Shown here: positions 25,356-39,561 of the stretch, piece after piece
How the letters are laid out: each line of letters begins with the position of its first letter
Numbering within the stretch: position 1 is the first letter of the stretch
Origin: Halorubrum sp. CBA1125
GTDB taxonomy: Archaea > Halobacteriota > Halobacteria > Halobacteriales > Haloferacaceae
Reading direction: 5' to 3'
Assembly (NCBI RefSeq): GCF_009742825.1
Contig: NZ_WPCE01000006.1
Span: 1 to 42,958, forward strand
Length of the DNA stretch: 42,958 bases
The notes under the pieces: model-generated
Seen by the model: only the letters and a program-made list of their open reading frames with translations
Told to the model about the DNA's origin: nothing
The model's database searches: none
Position numbers and translations under genes: made by a program

Positions 25356-26438
25356 ATGGTTACTGAAATCGACCTGCGTGATTCCTCGCCTCACGAGTTT
25401 CCAGACCGGATCTACGCCGCGCTCGACGAGACCGAGACAGGTGTCGAAGTTCTCGTTATCGCTGATCGAGATATCGACGCTCATCTGATCCAGTACCAGA
25501 TCGAACGGGACTGTGCCCTCGACTGGGCCCACGAGGATCCTGACGCGGAGCCCCGCGAGGTTCGGGTGTCCAAACAGGAACCACTCGGTGACGATGAGTT
25601 AGGGACGTTCGACGTGCGTGACCTGATACCGCAGCGGCGACACGAGGTGTTGCTCGATACGTTCGATCGCCTCGGACCCGGCGAGGGGTTCGTGCTGGTC
25701 AACGACCACGACCCGAAGCCGCTCTACTACGAACTTCGATCGATGCATGGCGATGTCATCGAGTGGGAGTACGCGAGTCGCGGGTCGGGTGAATGGCGCG
25801 TCGAGATCGTGAAGACCGACGCCTCGATAGCCGACGACGAGGGCGTGATCACGCGATACGATGTCCGGGAGATCCCGAAGCCGGATCGCCACGAGACGAT
25901 CCACCACCGGTACGGCATGATACCCGATGGGGAGACGATGGAGCTCATCGCTCCGCACGAGCCGCAGCCGCTCCGTCGCGAGTTTCGGGAGCAGTACGGT
26001 GACGCGTTCGACTGGGAGGTAGTCGAAGAAGAGCCCGGCCGCTGTCGGGTACAGATCACGAAGGCCGAACGAAGCGATGCCACATCCGACGGTGAGGAGC
26101 CCACGTCCGCGACGGCTGACAATGACGGGGTGTCCGCGGAAGCGTCCGACGAGATACCAGAGAGTGCGGCAGAGCTCGACGTCCGCGATCTTCCACCCGC
26201 TCAGCGCCACGAGAAGATCTTCAAGGCGTACGCGGACCTCGACGACGGAGAGGGATTTACCCTCGTGAACGACCACGACCCGAAGCCGCTGTACCACCAG
26301 TTCGACGCCGAGGCCGGCCCGGAGTTCTACTGGCAGTACCGCAAGCGTGATCCCGGCGAGTTCAGGGTGCTGATCGGGAAGACAGAAACGCACAGCGGTG
26401 AACCAACTGTCTCAGAGGATCCGAACGCACCGTTCTGA
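25356..26438 (+). CDS. Four tandem DUF2249 domains
   Basis: A 360-residue soluble protein made of four ~70-residue DUF2249 repeats. The first (residues ~4-75) is degenerate. The second (~85-155) starts FDVRDLIPQRRHEVLLDTFD and has LVNDHDPKPLYYEL. The third (~168-238) starts YDVREIPKPDRHETI and has IAPHEPQPLRREF. The fourth (~275-345) starts LDVRDLPPAQRHEKI and has LVNDHDPKPLYHQF. The conserved HDPKPL loop and the LDVR/RHE start define the family. DUF2249 is commonly encoded with denitrification and hemerythrin/RIC genes, but its chemistry is unproven. A linker (~239-270) rich in E, S and D separates domains 3 and 4. Confidence 0.9.
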   Translation: MVTEIDLRDSSPHEFPDRIYAALDETETGVEVLVIADRDIDAHLIQYQIERDCALDWAHEDPDAEPREVRVSKQEPLGDDELGTFDVRDLIPQRRHEVLLDTFDRLGPGEGFVLVNDHDPKPLYYELRSMHGDVIEWEYASRGSGEWRVEIVKTDASIADDEGVITRYDVREIPKPDRHETIHHRYGMIPDGETMELIAPHEPQPLRREFREQYGDAFDWEVVEEEPGRCRVQITKAERSDATSDGEEPTSATADNDGVSAEASDEIPESAAELDVRDLPPAQRHEKIFKAYADLDDGEGFTLVNDHDPKPLYHQFDAEAGPEFYWQYRKRDPGEFRVLIGKTETHSGEPTVSEDPNAPF

Positions 26439-27267: not shown

Positions 27268-28626
27268 TCACTCCTTGACCGTCTCGTCGGAGCCGTGTAC
27301 TCGAAGCGGCGAGAACGACCCCAACACGATCCGATCGATCGAGTGAGGGCTGTGACGGACCAACACGAGGACCATGTTCGACACGAACGCCACGACGCCG
27401 ACGCCCACGAGTACCCCGCCGAGGAGCGCCGGCGTTCCGGTGACTTCCAGTAGGTTCGCGCCCACGATCAGTGCGCTTCCGCCCCCGAGGAGTACCCCGT
27501 CGATCGCGGCGATCCGGTCGCCGTAGAGGTCGTCGATCATCGGGACGTCCTCTAATCCTAGCAGATCGCTGTACCGGTTGACCCAGATAACGAAGGGAAT
27601 GATGTGATAGAGCGTCCCCACGACGACGAACCCGATCGCTCCCAACAACAGCAGATGGCCGGCGTTCGCCGCGCCGAGCAGATGATCGCGCGTCAACGGG
27701 TCAGATATCCACGCGGGCACTGAGACGGCGATCCACAGCGCGAGTGCGCCGACCGCCACGATGTACCGCGTGTGCATCGGAGTCCGTTCGACCTGCATCT
27801 CGTACAGTTTGCGTGCCAGGATGAGACAGAACGCCGACGCGGCGAACAGGATCAACAGACCACCGACCCTCGAGGCGGGGGCGTGAGCCACGAGTCGTCC
27901 AAACGCGAGCACGACCACGCCGGTGGGATGTGCGATCTCCTCGATCGAACGAAGACGGTGGTCGATCCCGTGTAGTTCCGTCTGTGTGAACATCGTCCCG
28001 AGCTGGTACAGCGCTCCGTACATCGTCGTGAGTACGGCACCGAAGACCGCGAGGGTCGCGTGGGCTCCAACCACCCCGGACCGGCTGACGCCGATCCGCG
28101 AGAACGTCGGAACCGTGAAATCGACCGCGAGGAGGACGCCGAGAACGGTCAACAGAAGGAAGAAGCCGAGCGCACCGAGGAAGTGCCGTTCGGTGACGTC
28201 GTACTCCTCGACCGTGCCGAGCGTTCGGATGATGTTGTACGCGAAGGCCCAGAAGCCGACGAGCATGAGCGCCGCGAACGGGATCAGCCACGCCGTCTCG
28301 ACTAAGAGAAACGCGACGACGAATCCCGAGAGACCGGCGACGACCAGCCCCAACTGCAGATTCGCGAGCCGCCGCGAGTGGAGGATCGCTCCCGACCAGA
28401 CGGGCACGAACTGCGTCATCGCACCCATGATCGTGATACAGATCCAGCCGGCTAACAGGAGATGGACATGAGCGAGCCGGCCCAGTCCGGGAACGGCGTT
28501 CAGATGTAAGCCAATCCCGAGTCCGACTCCCGCGACGAGGAAGGCAAGCCCGACGACAAAGTGTCGTAACGGGACCGTCATCGGGGGCTGTTGGTCCGTC
28601 TCGATATTGCCTGGGATGGCGCCCAT
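27268..28626 (-). CDS. Heme-copper-oxidase/NnrS-like 12-TM membrane protein
   Basis: A 452-residue protein with about 12 TM segments and conserved histidines placed as in NnrS and single-subunit oxidase-like proteins: LAHVHLLLAGWICITIMGAMTQF (residues ~51-73), 'GAHATLAVFGAVLTTMYGALYQL' (~185) and NAGHLLLLGAIGFVVVGTLYH (~340-360). It lacks the HH pair of a catalytic oxidase subunit I. The start ATG 28626 fits a NarO-like site centred 44.5 bases upstream, so the alternative ATG 28581 is less likely. Homologues of NnrS are heme- and copper-containing proteins linked to NO metabolism. The exact family is uncertain. Confidence 0.65.
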   Translation of the reverse strand: MGAIPGNIETDQQPPMTVPLRHFVVGLAFLVAGVGLGIGLHLNAVPGLGRLAHVHLLLAGWICITIMGAMTQFVPVWSGAILHSRRLANLQLGLVVAGLSGFVVAFLLVETAWLIPFAALMLVGFWAFAYNIIRTLGTVEEYDVTERHFLGALGFFLLLTVLGVLLAVDFTVPTFSRIGVSRSGVVGAHATLAVFGAVLTTMYGALYQLGTMFTQTELHGIDHRLRSIEEIAHPTGVVVLAFGRLVAHAPASRVGGLLILFAASAFCLILARKLYEMQVERTPMHTRYIVAVGALALWIAVSVPAWISDPLTRDHLLGAANAGHLLLLGAIGFVVVGTLYHIIPFVIWVNRYSDLLGLEDVPMIDDLYGDRIAAIDGVLLGGGSALIVGANLLEVTGTPALLGGVLVGVGVVAFVSNMVLVLVRHSPHSIDRIVLGSFSPLRVHGSDETVKE

Positions 28627-28833: not shown

Positions 28834-31359
28834 ATGGCTGATTGCCGTCTCTGTGATCTCCCGACTTCGGACTCACCTATCAGGACTGCCGATATCGATG
28901 GGGAGTTCTGCTGTCGCGGCTGCTTGGAGGTGGCCCGTCGCCTCGACGACTTGGATCACGTGAAGGATGCGGGCGGGGTCGGGACAGACTCAGGGCCGTT
29001 GGGAGATGCGACGACCGAAAGCGGCGGATCGGCAACTGAGACGGCACTTCCGTCGGGAGCCACCGAGGCCTATCTGGCGGTCGACGGGATGCACTGTACG
29101 ACCTGCGAGGCGTTCCTCGGACTACGCGGTGACGACCAAGCCGGAATCCACGCCGTGGAAGCGAACTACGGCACCGAGACCGCCCGCGTCGTCTACGACC
29201 CGGGGGAGATCCAACGGACAGCCCTCCCGGAGGCGCTCTCCGGTTACGGCTACACGCTCCGACTTCGAGACGAGACATCGGCAGACAACGGTGCGGCCGC
29301 CGGTGATACCCGCACGTCCTCACAGAACGATCGGTCGGTCGAGCGACTCGTCGTCGGCGGCTTCCTCGCGATGCTGATCATGCCGTGGTACGTCCTCTCG
29401 CTGTACCCGAGGTATCTCGGCGTGGAGACGAACGTCCTCACAATCGATACGACCACGGCGGTCGGGTGGTACCTTCCGCTGGCGTTCATCGCGCTCCTCA
29501 CGACCGTTCTGTTGGCGTACACGGGCGCGCCGCTCCTCCGAGGCGCGTACGTAAGCGTTCGAGCACGCCGGCCGAACATGGACCTCCTCGTCGCGGTCGC
29601 CGCGCTGTCAGCGTACGCGTACAGTACCCTCGCGCTCGCGACCGGCGGCACGCATCTGTACTACGACGTCACCGTCGCCGTCGTGATGGTCGTCTCGCTC
29701 GGCCGGCACTACGAGCGACGAGTCCGATCGCAGGCGACTGACCTCCTCGAGACCGTCACGGCCGCTCGCGTCGAAACGGCCACGCGGATCACCGAAACCG
29801 GCTTCGAGACCGTCCCGATCGGGGACCTCGATCCGGGCGACCGCGTTCGAGTCACACCGGGGGAACACGTGCCGATCGACGGCACCGTTATCGAGGGGGC
29901 CGCCGACGTCGACGAGTCCGTGATCACCGGAGAGTCGCTCCCCGTGCGAAAGCGACCCGGCGAGACCGTAATCGGCGGTGCGACCCTACTCGGCGATGTC
30001 GGTCGAACCGACCAGGGGGAAGCCGAGGGGAACGGGCCGGCCGGTGCGATCGTGATACGGGTCGGCGAGGACGCGGAGAGCACCGCGGATCGCCTCGCCG
30101 CCGCACTCTGGGAGGTCCAGACCGCCACGCCGGGGATCCAGCGGTTCGTCGATAGGCTCGCGACCGTCTTCGTACCGGTCGTGCTCACACTCGGGCTGCT
30201 CGTCGCTGGCTGGCAACTTGCGACCGGCAGAACGGTCGCCGCTGCGATGCTCGCCGGGCTGACCGTTCTCGTCGTCTCGTGTCCGTGCGCGATGGGACTC
30301 GCGACGCCGCTCGCCGTCTCCGGCGGGCTGCGCGACGCGCTCGATCGCGGCGTGGTCGTCACGGACGCCTCGGTGTTCGAGGTCGCCCAGGAAGCTGAGA
30401 CGGTCGTGTTCGATAAAACGGGAACGCTCACCGCCGGGGAGATGCGCGTCAGCGCGACGTACGGCGACGACCGGACGCTCCGGCGCGCCGCCGCGGTCGA
30501 ACGCCGCGCCGATCACCCAGTCGCGGATGCGATTCGGGAGGCGGCTACCGGCGACCGGCCGGCCAACGTCCACGCCACTGAGGCGCCGACGGTCGAATCG
30601 TTCACCCACCACCCCGGATCGGGGGTCTCGGGGACGCTCGCTGATGACGATCCCGACAGATCCGGTCCTCGACCGGGTGGAACACGCGTCGTCGTGGGGA
30701 CCGCCGAGCTCGTCGAACGGGAGTGTGGTCCGGTCCCCGAAGAACTGCAGGAGCACATCGAAGCCATCACGGGCCGGGGCGCGCTGCCGGTCGTCGTGGG
30801 CTGGAACGGTGCGGCCCGCGGGATGATCGCCGTCGAGGACCGCGAACGAACGGGCTGGACGGCGACGCTGGAGGCGTTCGCCGATCGAGAGGTGGTCGTC
30901 CTGACCGGCGACGAAGGTCCTCGGGCCGATCGATTCCGGGATCATTCCGCGGTGGACGAGGTCTTCGCGGGCGTGCCGCCGAACGGAAAGCTCGAGGCGC
31001 TCCGCGGGTTCGCGTCTGCCGGGCCCACCGTAATGGTTGGCGACGGGACCAACGACGCGCCGGCGCTCGCGGCGGCCGACCTCGGTATCGCGATGGGCGA
31101 CGGGACGGCTCGCGCCGTCGAGGCCGCGGATGTCGTGATCACCGACGAGGATCTCCGTGCAGTCGAGACGGTATTCGACCTCGCGGCAGGGACGCGACGG
31201 CGCATTCGGGAGAACGTGGCCTGGGCGCTGTGTTACAACGCGGTGGCCATCCCGCTCGCGGTTGCGGGGGCGCTCAACCCATTCTTTGCTGCGCTGGCCA
31301 TGGCCGCCAGCAGCGGTATCGTCGTGACGAACTCGACGCGATCGGTGCTCCGAGACTGA
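28834..31359 (+). CDS. Copper-transporting P1B-type ATPase (CcoI/FixI-like)
   Basis: An 841-residue heavy-metal P-type ATPase. At the N-terminus is a Cys-rich treble-clef-like module (C4, C7, then CCRGC at 26-30), typical of the CcoI/FixI group that supplies copper to terminal reductases. A ferredoxin-like HMA domain with MHCTTC (~86-91) follows. The core has six to eight TM helices, VITGES (actuator), SCPCAMGLATP (~482, the CPC ion site), DKTGT (~526, phosphorylated Asp), RADHPVADAI (the HP motif) and GDGTNDAPAL (~735). It exports or delivers Cu(I) using ATP. Location between the NnrS-like gene and the CuA reductase operon suggests copper delivery to the reductase and NirK (inference). Confidence 0.92.
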   Translation: MADCRLCDLPTSDSPIRTADIDGEFCCRGCLEVARRLDDLDHVKDAGGVGTDSGPLGDATTESGGSATETALPSGATEAYLAVDGMHCTTCEAFLGLRGDDQAGIHAVEANYGTETARVVYDPGEIQRTALPEALSGYGYTLRLRDETSADNGAAAGDTRTSSQNDRSVERLVVGGFLAMLIMPWYVLSLYPRYLGVETNVLTIDTTTAVGWYLPLAFIALLTTVLLAYTGAPLLRGAYVSVRARRPNMDLLVAVAALSAYAYSTLALATGGTHLYYDVTVAVVMVVSLGRHYERRVRSQATDLLETVTAARVETATRITETGFETVPIGDLDPGDRVRVTPGEHVPIDGTVIEGAADVDESVITGESLPVRKRPGETVIGGATLLGDVGRTDQGEAEGNGPAGAIVIRVGEDAESTADRLAAALWEVQTATPGIQRFVDRLATVFVPVVLTLGLLVAGWQLATGRTVAAAMLAGLTVLVVSCPCAMGLATPLAVSGGLRDALDRGVVVTDASVFEVAQEAETVVFDKTGTLTAGEMRVSATYGDDRTLRRAAAVERRADHPVADAIREAATGDRPANVHATEAPTVESFTHHPGSGVSGTLADDDPDRSGPRPGGTRVVVGTAELVERECGPVPEELQEHIEAITGRGALPVVVGWNGAARGMIAVEDRERTGWTATLEAFADREVVVLTGDEGPRADRFRDHSAVDEVFAGVPPNGKLEALRGFASAGPTVMVGDGTNDAPALAAADLGIAMGDGTARAVEAADVVITDEDLRAVETVFDLAAGTRRRIRENVAWALCYNAVAIPLAVAGALNPFFAALAMAASSGIVVTNSTRSVLRD

Positions 31360-32144: not shown

Positions 32145-33869
32145 CTACGCACCGATCGCCCACAGCTGGGTCAGCAGATACCAGTTCAACACGTAGACGG
32201 CGACGAAGACGCCGAGGAAGATCAGACAGAGCGCGAAGGTTCCGCGGAGCTCCACCGCGTGGACGGGCTCTCCGCCGTCTGCGTGGAGTCCCCCCTCGGG
32301 TAGCATTCCGCCGTCGTCACCGTCGGGGAGCCGCCCGCCGAACAGCAGCGAGCCGACCGAAACGACAACGAACAGGACCCCGGAGAGAGTCGCCAGCAGC
32401 GCGAAGACCCCGAAGATCATGAAGATCGGGATCGCGGCCGAGAAGCTGAACTCCGAGCCGGGGATGTTCCGGACCACTTCGGCGGTCCGGCGCGGCACGC
32501 CGTAGAGGATTCCGGCGTACATCAACATCAGCGTGGCGACGCTCATCGCGCCCCCGTAGGCGTACGGGATCGCGGTCGCCAGCGTGTCCGAGACGAAGTC
32601 CCGCCGAAACATCGTTTTAATCACGAAGAGGACGAGCCCGAAGAACGCGAGCGTCGTCCCGAGCGCGACGGTGGCGTGGAAGTGTCCCACCGTCGCGAGG
32701 GTATTGTGCCAGGTCATGTTCACCTGTATCTGCCCCATCACGACGCCGGTGATCCCGCCGAGAAAGCCGAAGAGGATAATGCTAAAAATCGTCGCAGCGA
32801 AAACGGGATTCTTCCACGGCGCAGAGGTGAGCCAGCCGAAGAGCCCGCCGCCCTGTCCTCGACGGCGACGACCGGCCTCGATCCCCGCCGGGATCGCGAA
32901 CGCGTGAATCATGCTCGCGAAGGCCGCGCCGTAGAAGGCGTAGGAGGTGTTCCAGATCCGCCAGCCGGCAGAGACACCGGGATCGACGAGGAGGTGGTGG
33001 GCCGCTCCGAGATTGATGAAAAAGAGGTAGAGTATGAACGCGGTCCGAGAGACCTTCTCGGAGATTACCACCGCGCCGCCAACGACGTGGGTGAGGAAAT
33101 ACCACACCGTGATCATCGCAAGCAGGTTGATCTGCTGAGTTCCGTGGCCGACGATCCAGTAGAGCTGCCGGTAGATCCCCGGATCTACCGAGGCGATGAG
33201 GTCGACACGCCAGGCGAGCGCGTACGCGAACGCGGCGATCCCGCCGAGGATCGCTTCGACGGCGATAATCCCGGTGACGAACGCGCCGAACGCGACGAGC
33301 GGGAGCGTTCGCCGGCTATCGCGGGTCTCCGACCAGATCGTCGCGAAGAACGGCACCGCGGCGATCGTGGCTCCGATCAGAAAGACGATCGCCGTTCCGT
33401 AGAACCACGGCGTGACGGGAAGCGGGACGTACGCCGTCAGAAGCGGCGCCTCGTTGGGCGCCTCGGACAGCCAGATGGATGCGTTCACGCCGATCGCCCC
33501 GGCGACCATGGTGATCCACCCGACAGTCGCGAGCCGCCGAAGCGGGAGCTTCCGGCCGAGCACCATCGGGCCGCCGACGTAGAGGACGGCGATCTCCATG
33601 AACACCATCCAGAAGATGAGCAGGTTCCACGCGTGCATGCTCAGGTGCGTGTAGTAGCTGCTCGGGTCGAGCAGACCGACGAACTCCCAGCGCGTCATCG
33701 CGACGGAGAAGGCGAAGCTCCCGCCGACCGCGAGCGCGATCACCGCGGTCAGCCCGAACAGCTTCACGTAGTTCTCCACGGATCGGTGGATGTCGAGGCC
33801 GGTCACCGAGCACGTGCGGAAGCCGTCCGCGCCGTAGTCGTTCCGGAACAGAGAGGCGATCGCCGACAT
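32145..33869 (-). CDS. Heme-copper reductase catalytic subunit, Tyr-less (putative CuA-type nitric oxide reductase)
   Basis: A 574-residue subunit I with ~14 TM helices. Ligands: H79 (helix II, HLSMHAWN) and H398 for the low-spin heme, H396 (helix X, HNTLATVGHFHAT) for the active-site heme, and H242, H291 and H292 (GAAHHLLVDPG) for the second metal. The helix VI motif is GHGTQQINLL instead of GHPxVYxxxLP, so Q246 stands where oxygen reductases have the cross-linked Tyr. The helix VII and X sequences resemble ba3/B-type oxidases. Loss of that Tyr is a hallmark of the heme-copper NO reductase families (cNOR, qNOR and the newer eNOR/sNOR/gNOR/nNOR types). With NirK next door, NO reduction is the most economical assignment. 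A ba3-type O2 reductase remains possible until tested. Confidence 0.85.
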   Translation of the reverse strand: MSAIASLFRNDYGADGFRTCSVTGLDIHRSVENYVKLFGLTAVIALAVGGSFAFSVAMTRWEFVGLLDPSSYYTHLSMHAWNLLIFWMVFMEIAVLYVGGPMVLGRKLPLRRLATVGWITMVAGAIGVNASIWLSEAPNEAPLLTAYVPLPVTPWFYGTAIVFLIGATIAAVPFFATIWSETRDSRRTLPLVAFGAFVTGIIAVEAILGGIAAFAYALAWRVDLIASVDPGIYRQLYWIVGHGTQQINLLAMITVWYFLTHVVGGAVVISEKVSRTAFILYLFFINLGAAHHLLVDPGVSAGWRIWNTSYAFYGAAFASMIHAFAIPAGIEAGRRRRGQGGGLFGWLTSAPWKNPVFAATIFSIILFGFLGGITGVVMGQIQVNMTWHNTLATVGHFHATVALGTTLAFFGLVLFVIKTMFRRDFVSDTLATAIPYAYGGAMSVATLMLMYAGILYGVPRRTAEVVRNIPGSEFSFSAAIPIFMIFGVFALLATLSGVLFVVVSVGSLLFGGRLPDGDDGGMLPEGGLHADGGEPVHAVELRGTFALCLIFLGVFVAVYVLNWYLLTQLWAIGA

Positions 33870-33870
33870 A

Positions 33871-34413
33871 CTACCCCTCCACCACGGTGAAGCGGCCGTG
33901 CATCGTTCGGTGTCCCTGTCCGCAGAACTCGTTGCAGACGACGTGGTAGGTGCCCGGTTCGTCGAAGGTCATCGGGATCACCCACTCGGAGCCCGGAAAC
34001 ACTTGGAGATTGATCTGCTTGTTCAGGTTCTCCTCGGGCCTGACCGAGAAGCCGTGTTGGACGTCGTAGGCACCGAGGTGGATGTCGTACTCGCGTCCCG
34101 CTTCGAGGACGGCCGGGAGTCCGTCCCAGTTGAACCGCATCGCGCCGACGTACACGTCGTCGTTGGGCGGGACCAGTCCGTCTTCGGTCTCTTCGGCTGC
34201 GTCCTTATACTCGCCGACGCGTTCCTGATACCGATCTGGATCGACATCGTAGGTCGTGCCGATCGGATTCTGATCGCCGAACTGGGTGAACCCTGCCATC
34301 CACGTGAAGATGCCGAGCGACCACGCACCTGCAATTCCCAGCCAGATGCTCTCACGACGGTTTACCGGGGAATTCCACCAATCGTCGTCGGGGTCCTCGA
34401 GCGGATTACTCAT
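33871..34413 (-). CDS. Reductase subunit II with CuA centre
   Basis: A 180-residue protein: N-terminal TM helix (residues ~22-40), linker, then a cupredoxin domain with a full CuA set: H120 in YDVQHGF, then C160, E162, C164, H168 and M171 in CNEFCGQGHRTMHGRF. The short length and single TM fit ba3-type subunit II. CuA takes electrons from a soluble or anchored cupredoxin (halocyanin). None is encoded nearby, so the donor is elsewhere. The start of subunit I is one base from this stop. Confidence 0.93.
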   Translation of the reverse strand: MSNPLEDPDDDWWNSPVNRRESIWLGIAGAWSLGIFTWMAGFTQFGDQNPIGTTYDVDPDRYQERVGEYKDAAEETEDGLVPPNDDVYVGAMRFNWDGLPAVLEAGREYDIHLGAYDVQHGFSVRPEENLNKQINLQVFPGSEWVIPMTFDEPGTYHVVCNEFCGQGHRTMHGRFTVVEG

Positions 34414-34420
34414 GCAGAAG

Positions 34421-34576
34421 TCACCTCACGGACAACGAGAGGAGGTCGAGCAGCCCCCAGCCGACGTAGGCCACGAGGAAGAAGACCATCGCGGCCACGG
34501 CTAACAGCCAGATACGGTTATAGAGGCGTTGCATCGCCGGGATATTGCCGTCGTCGTGTGTCGGTTCGTTACTCAT
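34421..34576 (-). CDS. Small single-TM subunit of the reductase
   Basis: A 51-residue protein from ATG 34576 (MSNEPTHDDGNIPAMQRLYNRIWLL) with one TM helix (~24-46) that ends LLSLSVR. It opens the operon, seven bases upstream of subunit II, like the CbaD-type small subunits of haloarchaeal ba3 oxidases. The acidic N-terminus should be cytosolic. A NarO-like site lies 55 bases upstream. Confidence 0.75.
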   Translation of the reverse strand: MSNEPTHDDGNIPAMQRLYNRIWLLAVAAMVFFLVAYVGWGLLDLLSLSVR

Positions 34577-34625: not shown

Positions 34626-34637
34626 CGCACATGTTCG
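34626..34637 (-). promoter_or_regulatory. NarO-like palindrome upstream of the reductase operon
   Basis: CGCACATGTTCG, 11 of 12 to consensus, centred 55.5 bases before ATG 34576. The spacing is ~10 bases longer than the norm, so the message probably has a short leader. Confidence 0.65.
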
Positions 34638-34739: not shown

Positions 34740-36101
34740 CTACAACACGAGCGTTTCGACGAGGATCGCCACGAGTACGGTCCCGAGGTAGGCGTTCGAG
34801 GCGTGGAAGCTTCGGTAGGCGGCAGCCCGTTCGTCTTCGGATCCCCGTGGATCGACGTCGTACTGTCGGACCACGCTTCGAACGAACACCGCTCCGAGCA
34901 CCGTGGTGGTGAGCGTGTAGAGGATACCGAGATCGGTAGCGGCTCCCAACAGAACCGCGGCGATCAGGGTGACTCCGAGCCAAGCAAGAATCCGCTGGCG
35001 GGCGGTCCGCACACCGGCGACGACGGGCAGCATCGGGTAGTCGGCGCGGGCGTAGTCCTCCCGGTGGGCGATCGCGAGGTTGTAGAAATGCGCCGGGGTC
35101 CAACAGCAGACGACGATCGCAAGCAGAATTGCGGGGAGGCTAACGGTCCCTGTCACCGCAGCATATCCGATCAGCGCGGGTAACGCCCCGGATCCTCCGC
35201 CGATCACGGTGTTCCACCGCGTAGTCGGCTTCAGAAGGACCGTGTAGACGTACGCGTAATAGACGATCGCTGCCGCCGTGAGCGCGGCCGTGAATACGTT
35301 AGCGAACGCAACCATCACCGCCATTGAGGCGACGACGAGCACGATGCCGAAGCCAGTCGCGCGTCGAACACCGACCCGATCGGTCGCGATCGGTCGGTCA
35401 GCGGTCCGTCGCATCTTGCGGTCGCGATCCCGTTCGTACACGTGGTTGAACGTCCCTGCTGCGCCGATCGCGAGAACGCCGCCGCCGAGAGTCGCGACGA
35501 CCGTCACGCCGTCGAGTTCGGCGCCGGCCGCGACGGCCAGTCCCATCCCTGCCAGCGCCAGCAGGCACAACAACCACATCAATCGAGGCTTAGTCAACTC
35601 GAGATACGCCCGAACCCGGTCGCGGAACCGAGTCGTATCGGTTTCGGCTACTTGGGTAAGAGTGTCTCCATCAGACACGTTCGGCGTCACGCGGTTGCTT
35701 GGACCGTTCGGAGAGCTGTCGTCGACTGATCCCCCCGCGACCGTCTCTACTCTGATCACGAGCGTCACGAGGAGGACGGTAAACACTGCGATCCCGCCCA
35801 GCAGGTGGAGCCCGCCGTCGAACGGCACGACGTCAGTTTGGCCCGCGAGCCCGACACCGGCTTGTGCCAAGTACGTGATCAACACCGCGAGCGTTCCGAC
35901 ACGGACACTACGCGAGGCCGCCGTTCGGTGGGCAAGCAGAGCCGTAACGGTGAGCAAAACACCGACAGCCACGGCGGAGGCGTGGTGGACCACGACGACT
36001 ACGGAGCCGGTGTCCGTCGCAGCGGTCGCTCCAAGCGCAACGAGCAGGTATGTCCCCACGACTGACCAGATCAAAAGCGTCGTGAGCCGTGGCAGATACA
36101 T
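34740..36101 (-). CDS. ctaB: Heme O synthase (protoheme IX farnesyltransferase) with N-terminal membrane domain
   Basis: A 453-residue protein. Residues ~1-120 form four TM helices with VVHHASAVAVGV and FDGGLHLLGGIAVF, resembling half of a CtaA/COX15-type domain. A disordered linker follows, then a UbiA prenyltransferase domain: LELTKPRLMWLLCLLALAGM, the first Asp-rich motif NHVYERDRDRKMRRT and the second part YTVLLKPTTRWNTVIGG. It attaches a farnesyl group to heme B, giving heme O for the reductase. The fused N-terminal domain is usual in haloarchaea. It has its own NarO-like site centred 43.5 bases before ATG 36101. Confidence 0.92.
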   Translation of the reverse strand: MYLPRLTTLLIWSVVGTYLLVALGATAATDTGSVVVVVHHASAVAVGVLLTVTALLAHRTAASRSVRVGTLAVLITYLAQAGVGLAGQTDVVPFDGGLHLLGGIAVFTVLLVTLVIRVETVAGGSVDDSSPNGPSNRVTPNVSDGDTLTQVAETDTTRFRDRVRAYLELTKPRLMWLLCLLALAGMGLAVAAGAELDGVTVVATLGGGVLAIGAAGTFNHVYERDRDRKMRRTADRPIATDRVGVRRATGFGIVLVVASMAVMVAFANVFTAALTAAAIVYYAYVYTVLLKPTTRWNTVIGGGSGALPALIGYAAVTGTVSLPAILLAIVVCCWTPAHFYNLAIAHREDYARADYPMLPVVAGVRTARQRILAWLGVTLIAAVLLGAATDLGILYTLTTTVLGAVFVRSVVRQYDVDPRGSEDERAAAYRSFHASNAYLGTVLVAILVETLVL

Positions 36102-36138: not shown

Positions 36139-36150
36139 CGAACATATTCG
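36139..36150 (-). promoter_or_regulatory. NarO-like palindrome upstream of ctaB
   Basis: CGAACATATTCG, 11 of 12 to consensus, centred 43.5 bases before ATG 36101. Confidence 0.7.
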
Positions 36151-37148: not shown

Positions 37149-37160
37149 CGAACATGTTCG
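37149..37160 (+). promoter_or_regulatory. NarO-like palindrome upstream of the peroxiredoxin gene
   Basis: CGAACATGTTCG, a perfect 12 of 12 palindrome, centred 45.5 bases before ATG 37200. A TATA-like TTATCC (37169-37174) lies ~28 bases before the ATG, so the transcript is probably leaderless and the site sits directly upstream of the TATA/BRE, an activator position. Confidence 0.8.
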
Positions 37161-38315: not shown

Positions 38316-39413
38316 ATGTCACAAGACCTCAGCAGACGGAAGATGGTTACAGCTCTCGGGATTGGAGCGGTCGGCGCCGTTGCTGGCTGTATTGGCGCAC
38401 CCGTGAACGCGGAGCCGACTTCCGACACCGAAGCGACCCCGGACGTAGCCCCAGAGCTGGACCCCGCACGCGGCGTCGACGTGGACCGGATCGCGGCCGA
38501 CCCGACCGACGTACCGGCGCCGGTCGACTGGGACGAGCCGCGCGAACACGACGTAACGCTCCGGACGAAGGAGCTCGTCGCGGAGATCGAACCCGGTGTC
38601 ACGTTCAAGTACATGACCTTCGAGGGGCGGGTCCCAGGGCCGATGATTCGCGTCCGGCGGGGCGACACTGTGAACCTCCGGTTCGAGGTGCCGGCCGACG
38701 ACAACAACGACATCCACAACGTTGACTTCCACGCGGTGTACGGGCCCGGCGGCGGCGCCGTCGACACGACGCTCGTGCCCGGCGACGACGTGGCGGAACT
38801 GAGATTCCGCGCCGAGTTCCCTGGACTGTTCACCTACCACTGTGCGGTGCCCGCGATGGACCACCACGTCAGTTCCGGGATGTTCGGCGCGATCCTCGTC
38901 GAGCCCGAGGGGGGGCTGCCAGCGGTCGACCGCGAGATCTATCTCGGTCAGCACGAACTGTACACCAAGGGTGACCTCGGTGAGAAGGGTCACCACGCCT
39001 TCGACCACGGGTCGATGCTCGACGAGGCCCCGACCTACGTCGTGTTCAACGGCGAACACCACGGCTTCACGAAGGACCGTCTCGGCGCGATCGGTGCCGC
39101 GGTCGGCGAAACCGTCCGCGTGTTCTTCGTCAACGGCGGCCCGAATCAGTCCAGCTCGTGGCATCCGATCGGGAACGTCTGGTCGCGGCTGTACCGCGAC
39201 GGTGACCTCGTCTCGCCGCCCGCACGGTACGTCGAGACGACGCCGGTCACACCGGGCACGGCGACCGTCGGCGAGATGGACCTCGTAGTTCCAGGCCCGA
39301 TCAAGATCGTCGATCACGCGCTCTCCCGGGCGGGCCGGCGCGGAGCACTCGCGGTCGTTGACGTCGAGGGCGAACCGAACCCGGATGTGTACGACCCGAA
39401 GACTGACGAGTAG
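38316..39413 (+). CDS. nirK: Copper-containing nitrite reductase
   Basis: A 365-residue two-cupredoxin enzyme that reduces nitrite to nitric oxide on the outer face of the membrane. N-terminal Tat lipoprotein signal: SRRKMVTALGIGAVGAVAGC. Type 1 copper ligands: H134 (IHNVDFHA), C176 and H184, M189 (TYHCAVPAMDHHVSSGM). Type 2 copper ligands: H139, H175 and H334 (IVDHALSRAG). Catalytic Asp-137 and His-283 (SSWHPIGNVW) are present. All active-site residues of the family are intact, so it should be functional. The start MSQDLSRRKM at 38316 fits the Tat motif. Promoter features are at 38207-38281. Confidence 0.96.
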   Translation: MSQDLSRRKMVTALGIGAVGAVAGCIGAPVNAEPTSDTEATPDVAPELDPARGVDVDRIAADPTDVPAPVDWDEPREHDVTLRTKELVAEIEPGVTFKYMTFEGRVPGPMIRVRRGDTVNLRFEVPADDNNDIHNVDFHAVYGPGGGAVDTTLVPGDDVAELRFRAEFPGLFTYHCAVPAMDHHVSSGMFGAILVEPEGGLPAVDREIYLGQHELYTKGDLGEKGHHAFDHGSMLDEAPTYVVFNGEHHGFTKDRLGAIGAAVGETVRVFFVNGGPNQSSSWHPIGNVWSRLYRDGDLVSPPARYVETTPVTPGTATVGEMDLVVPGPIKIVDHALSRAGRRGALAVVDVEGEPNPDVYDPKTDE

Positions 39414-39549: not shown

Positions 39550-39561
39550 CAAACATGTTCG
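39550..39561 (+). promoter_or_regulatory. NarO-like palindrome upstream of the multicopper oxidase gene
   Basis: CAAACATGTTCG, 11 of 12 to consensus, centred 72.5 bases before ATG 39628 but exactly 45.5 before an in-frame TTG at 39601. Confidence 0.65.

Follow-up and report, generated by a model that had tools for sequence, protein, structure and literature searches.

A haloarchaeal operon that very probably encodes a CuA-type nitric oxide reductase of the eNOR family, with a conserved fourth gene

Heme-copper enzymes that reduce nitric oxide (NO) and those that respire oxygen lie, in the case described here, a handful of residues apart, and general annotation models label eNOR an oxidase. 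A locus of Halorubrum sp. CBA1125 raises the question of which of the two reactions its product catalyzes and to which family it belongs; the first-pass annotation had described a heme-copper enzyme with glutamine in place of the active-site tyrosine, had proposed NO reduction, and had left the family open. The window analyzed here is the whole stretch of 42,958 nucleotides (contig C315) from a host genome of 3.23 Mb in 379 contigs that is 84% complete. The interval 32145-34576, correctly placed at the outset, comprises three adjacent genes on the minus strand (the 51-aa ORF, subunit II and subunit I; Table 1), and in 40 haloarchaeal loci the genes for subunit II, subunit I and the fourth protein follow one another in this order, preceded in 39 of them by a homologue of the small ORF at the equivalent position. 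Sequence comparison indicates that the operon very probably encodes a haloarchaeal member of eNOR, a family of CuA-type nitric oxide reductases related to the B-family (ba3-type) oxygen reductases. What we add to this family is a regulatory link, counts of denitrifiers in which our searches found no NO reductase other than eNOR, and a tightly linked fourth gene, which was the least expected part.

Table 1 Features of the operon and its surroundings (window positions; motif refers to CGAAYATDKTYG)
Feature	Position	Strand	Remarks
DUF2249 protein, four domains	25356..26435	+	denitrification motif 43 bp upstream
Heavy-metal P-type ATPase	28834..31359	+	homologue near most haloarchaeal eNOR operons
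Fourth operon gene, 229 aa	31406..32095	-	conserved in 40/40 haloarchaeal loci
Probable eNOR subunit I, heme-copper catalytic subunit, 574 aa	32145..33869	-	Gln246 at Tyr position
Probable eNOR subunit II, 180 aa	33871..34413	-	complete CuA site
51-aa single-helix membrane ORF	34421..34576	-	operon gene 1; subunit IIa-like by position
Motif CGAACATGTGCG, 1 mismatch	34626..34637	-	ends 49 bp before first operon gene
ctaB, heme o synthase, extra N-terminal membrane domain	34740..36101	-	NCBIfam heme o synthase, above cut-off
Exact motif	36139..36150		between ctaB and DtxR-type regulator, 37 bp before ctaB start
Exact motif CGAACATGTTCG	37149..37160		close upstream of AhpC/TSA-type peroxiredoxin domain
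nirK, copper nitrite reductase	38316..39413	+	TIGR02376 356 bits, cut-off 296
Exact motif	39550..39561		before multicopper oxidase gene

Active site of subunit I and CuA site of subunit II

Subunit I matches the Pfam COX1 family (E 4e-49), and its closest PDB sequences are entries of the Thermus ba3 oxidase (E 2e-35), to which it is about 25% identical; for subunit II the match is to the CuA subunit of ba3 (E 2e-15). A structure model of subunit I (pLDDT 85) has the heme-copper oxidase fold. Searches with this model do not settle the family, because A-family and ba3 oxidases score alike (Z 33-35; Z 33 for Thermus thermophilus ba3, PDB 1ehk), and no NO reductase is among the matches listed.

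Alignment with Thermus ba3 bears out the presence of all six histidine ligands, namely H79 and H398 of the low-spin heme, H396 of the high-spin heme, and H242, H291 and H292 of CuB. It likewise confirms the loss of the tyrosine from helix VI, where the sequence reads GHGTQQIN as against GHPxVYFW in the tyrosine oxidases, such that Q246 aligns with Tyr237 and N248 with Trp239 of the Thermus enzyme. Of the positions equivalent to the ba3 K-path, three are kept (Glu15 of subunit II as E21, which is invariant in 41 haloarchaeal copies, Ser309 as S319 and Tyr248 as Y257) and two are changed (Thr312 to H322, and Tyr244, lost, to Ile/Val). The CuA site of subunit II is complete, as had been proposed, with H120, C160, E162, C164, H168 and M171 conserved in 41/41 haloarchaeal copies.

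Because Q245 and Q246 are identical in all 125 relatives that we compared (41 haloarchaeal and 84 bacterial), the glutamine is neither a chance substitution nor a sequencing oddity. These relatives also share, without exception, N248, H322, E92 and an RxC motif near the N-terminus, and the entire set is missing from four tyrosine-type comparison proteins. The bacterial loci were collected partly by patterns that include QQ[IV]N and the bacterial subset is thus biased towards glutamine, whereas the haloarchaeal set, from whole-protein searches, and the plasmid set, from tblastn, are free of this bias and agree on glutamine. Four of the 84 bacterial relatives have lysine at a low-spin heme ligand (GHFK for GHFH), among them the eNOR-like subunit I of two Thermus thermophilus plasmids (L037 and L038).

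Promoter motif and neighboring genes

In Haloferax mediterranei the motif CGAAYATDKTYG is found in the promoters of narGH, nirK, nor and nosZ, and the results of site-directed mutagenesis pointed to a role in the control of nor and nosZ (PMC10062603, PMC11218638). When at most one mismatch is allowed, the window holds 24 strand hits (14 sites) where 3.8 would be expected, and all but one of the four exact sites in the 3.2-Mb genome fall within it (chance about 1e-5). Specifically, copies lie 36-43 bp before ctaB and the genes for the DtxR-type regulator, the copper ATPase and the DUF2249 protein; there is no copy at this threshold within 200 bp upstream of nirK. Haloarchaeal eNOR operons carry the motif upstream in 24 of 41 cases (at most one mismatch), as compared to 0.33 in shuffles, mostly at 40-50 bp from the start. 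The host qNOR gene is preceded by a copy with one mismatch, and the regions upstream of the host aa3 and ba3 oxidase genes are devoid of the motif when up to two mismatches are searched. A shorter motif linked to NarO, CGAACNNNNGTTCG, is only weakly enriched in the window and was set aside in favor of the published one. These patterns suggest that the operon is probably induced together with denitrification through a factor that would bind CGAAYATDKTYG.

The neighboring nirK, copper ATPase and ctaB genes, which the first-pass annotation had read as favoring NO reduction, are supported by profile matches, and all recur near haloarchaeal eNOR loci, with nirK no more than about 9 kb from the operon in 14/40 of them. 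The P-type ATPase probably supplies copper for CuA and CuB. In bacteria, eNOR genes are also adjoined by ctaB in Defluviimonas and Thermomicrobium, and in Ardenticatena maritima NirK and eNOR are encoded in one operon (PMC4653789). DUF2249 proteins have been proposed to be N-oxide sensors, and Haloferax mediterranei induces their genes when it denitrifies (PMC11218638). The label NnrS-like given earlier to the gene at 27268-28626 (minus strand) is not backed by Pfam, which yields just a sub-threshold COX1 match; the product is a multi-helix protein that may be a member of the NnrS superfamily, and a denitrification motif lies upstream of its gene. The product of ctaB has about 150 additional N-terminal residues with membrane helices and histidines, perhaps a half-CtaA fusion, and the heme o synthase that adjoins eNOR in Thermomicrobium is likewise extended, at about 600 aa.

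nirK, qNOR and the fourth gene across haloarchaea

Among 292 haloarchaeal genomes we found eNOR in 53, with subunit I at 60-96% identity to the present copy; ordinary ba3 oxidases score sharply lower, at about 30%. In a comparison of eNOR copies, those of other haloarchaea are 59-96% identical to it and those of bacteria about 38-44%. A nirK gene is present in 50 of the 53 genomes with eNOR and in 108 of the 239 others (odds ratio 20, p 4e-12), and when only genomes without qNOR are considered it is present in 17/18 with eNOR versus 21/113 without. Such p-values overstate independence because related genomes are counted, although the direction is unchanged within the genus Halorubrum itself, where nirK occurs in 5/5 eNOR genomes and in 6/30 others.

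The 158 genomes with nirK divide into 87 with qNOR only, 33 with both enzymes, 17 in which eNOR is the sole NO reductase found, and 21 in which neither was found by these searches. These counts disagree with a 2021 survey in which NorZ is the only class of NO reductase in haloarchaea (PMC8400030). Given the 17 genomes with eNOR only, the potential for N2O formation and the completeness of denitrification in hypersaline settings would be undercounted if qNOR alone were sought.

The host genome does contain a qNOR gene (on contig C219), a check that had been called for at the start. Haloarchaeal qNOR (NorZ) resembles the enzyme described here in its proposed reaction (NO to N2O), in its denitrification motif and in its presence in this genome, but it is a single-subunit quinol enzyme without CuA and belongs to another branch of the superfamily. 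The presence of both enzymes in one genome, together with the observation that a characterized eNOR reduces NO under microoxic conditions (PMC11388526), raises the possibility that eNOR serves mainly to detoxify NO at low oxygen while qNOR is the respiratory enzyme. This division of roles, which is compatible with our assignment and differs from it only as regards function, we consider possible though rather unlikely, since 17 genomes with nirK yielded no NO reductase apart from eNOR and the two enzymes have the denitrification motif in common.

The fourth gene follows eNOR closely. It is present in 52 of the 53 eNOR genomes and matched in only two of the 239 other haloarchaeal genomes, one match being a fragment with a stop and the other being weak; in the one eNOR genome that lacks it (G034) the match to subunit I is itself incomplete. 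It is absent from the 84 bacterial eNOR loci, a set that includes some with short flanks. Besides predicted membrane helices, the protein has an outer domain in which a pair of cysteines is invariant, and it matches no Pfam family above the cut-off; among weak matches Big_7 is the most frequent (6/15, best E 0.002). In a single-sequence model, weak overall (mean pLDDT 58), the outer domain is seven-stranded with pLDDT 76-88 in most blocks, and comparison with the PDB (best E 0.004) points to an Ig- or FnIII-like outer domain and nothing more specific. The product is most likely an eNOR subunit or a dedicated assembly factor, and perhaps docks halocyanin or helps to build CuA. With moderate confidence we propose that this fourth subunit or assembly factor is specific to haloarchaea and that some denitrifiers rely on the four-gene eNOR instead of qNOR. 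Together with the promoter motif, the fourth gene provides a simple handle for finding and testing eNOR.

Family assignment and proposed reaction

That the enzyme reduces NO as opposed to O2, as first proposed, is favored at the level of sequence by the glutamine shared across the family, the distance from tyrosine oxidases, the association with nirK and the denitrification motif in the promoter. The alternative, a divergent B-family oxygen reductase that functions without the cross-linked tyrosine, would account for a general fold and a CuA subunit that match oxygen reductases and for Pfam and NCBIfam models that return oxidase only. We regard it as very improbable, because the tyrosine is missing from every one of the 125 relatives, because the host genome already encodes two oxidases, of the aa3 and ba3 types, in which it is retained, and because the denitrification motif precedes the eNOR operon and neither of those oxidases; assignment to the ba3-type reductases by the GHPxVY tyrosine is ruled against by the sequence GHGTQQ. 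Thermus thermophilus ba3 has in common with subunits I and II the B-family fold, the CuA subunit and the equivalents of the subunit II Glu, Ser309 and Tyr248.

The eNOR family reportedly goes back to Hemp and Gennis in 2008. It is one of four biochemically characterized NOR families and is related to the B-family oxidases (PMC11388526), and it has been reported in Natronomonas, 'throughout Halobacteria', and in Chloroflexi, Thermus, Rhodothermus and Proteobacteria (PMC8756737). The residue at the tyrosine position is diagnostic, being Q in eNOR, N in sNOR, D in gNOR, N in CuA-NOR and E in cNOR/qNOR (PMC8756737). In a tree of 75 proteins, which contains neither the biochemically characterized Rhodothermus marinus eNOR (it is also not among the 80 loci retained) nor reference sNOR, gNOR, bNOR or nNOR sequences, the haloarchaeal copies form a single clade (100/100). 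This clade joins bacterial glutamine-bearing sequences from Anaerolineales, Ardenticatenaceae, Thermomicrobium, Thermus plasmids and Alphaproteobacteria, and the glutamine-bearing sequences are separated from four tyrosine oxidases at 100/100. We therefore answer the question of family with eNOR, as the enzyme has the diagnostic glutamine and groups with sequences from Thermus and Anaerolineales, groups that PMC8756737 counts as eNOR. Subunit I is not a new family, since the family was already known from Halobacteria. The locus shares with other eNOR loci the glutamine for tyrosine, the CuA subunit II directly upstream, the six histidines, and ctaB and nirK nearby; haloarchaeal operons differ in having the conserved fourth gene, which was not found in bacterial loci.

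Membership of sNOR, gNOR, bNOR (CuA-NOR) or nNOR, all of which are, like eNOR, CuA-type relatives of the B-family oxidases (PMC11388526), is highly unlikely, because glutamine is present where the published residues are asparagine in sNOR and CuA-NOR and aspartate in gNOR (PMC8756737), with nNOR lying outside this comparison. Glutamine and a CuA subunit likewise set the enzyme apart from cNOR and qNOR, for which glutamate and no CuA are expected.

In the eNOR that we propose, a small copper protein, for example halocyanin, would donate electrons at CuA of subunit II, and these would pass to the low-spin heme (H79/H398) and on to the high-spin heme (H396) and CuB (H242, H291, H292). There, judging from the family, two molecules of NO would be converted to N2O and water. 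Q246 would stand in place of the tyrosine needed for O2 cleavage and, with Q245 and N248, may form a polar pocket. Protons would probably be drawn from the cytoplasm by a modified K-type path (E21 of subunit II, S319, H322 and Y257), and the enzyme may therefore conserve energy. In the cell, eNOR would clear the NO that is produced by the neighboring NirK.
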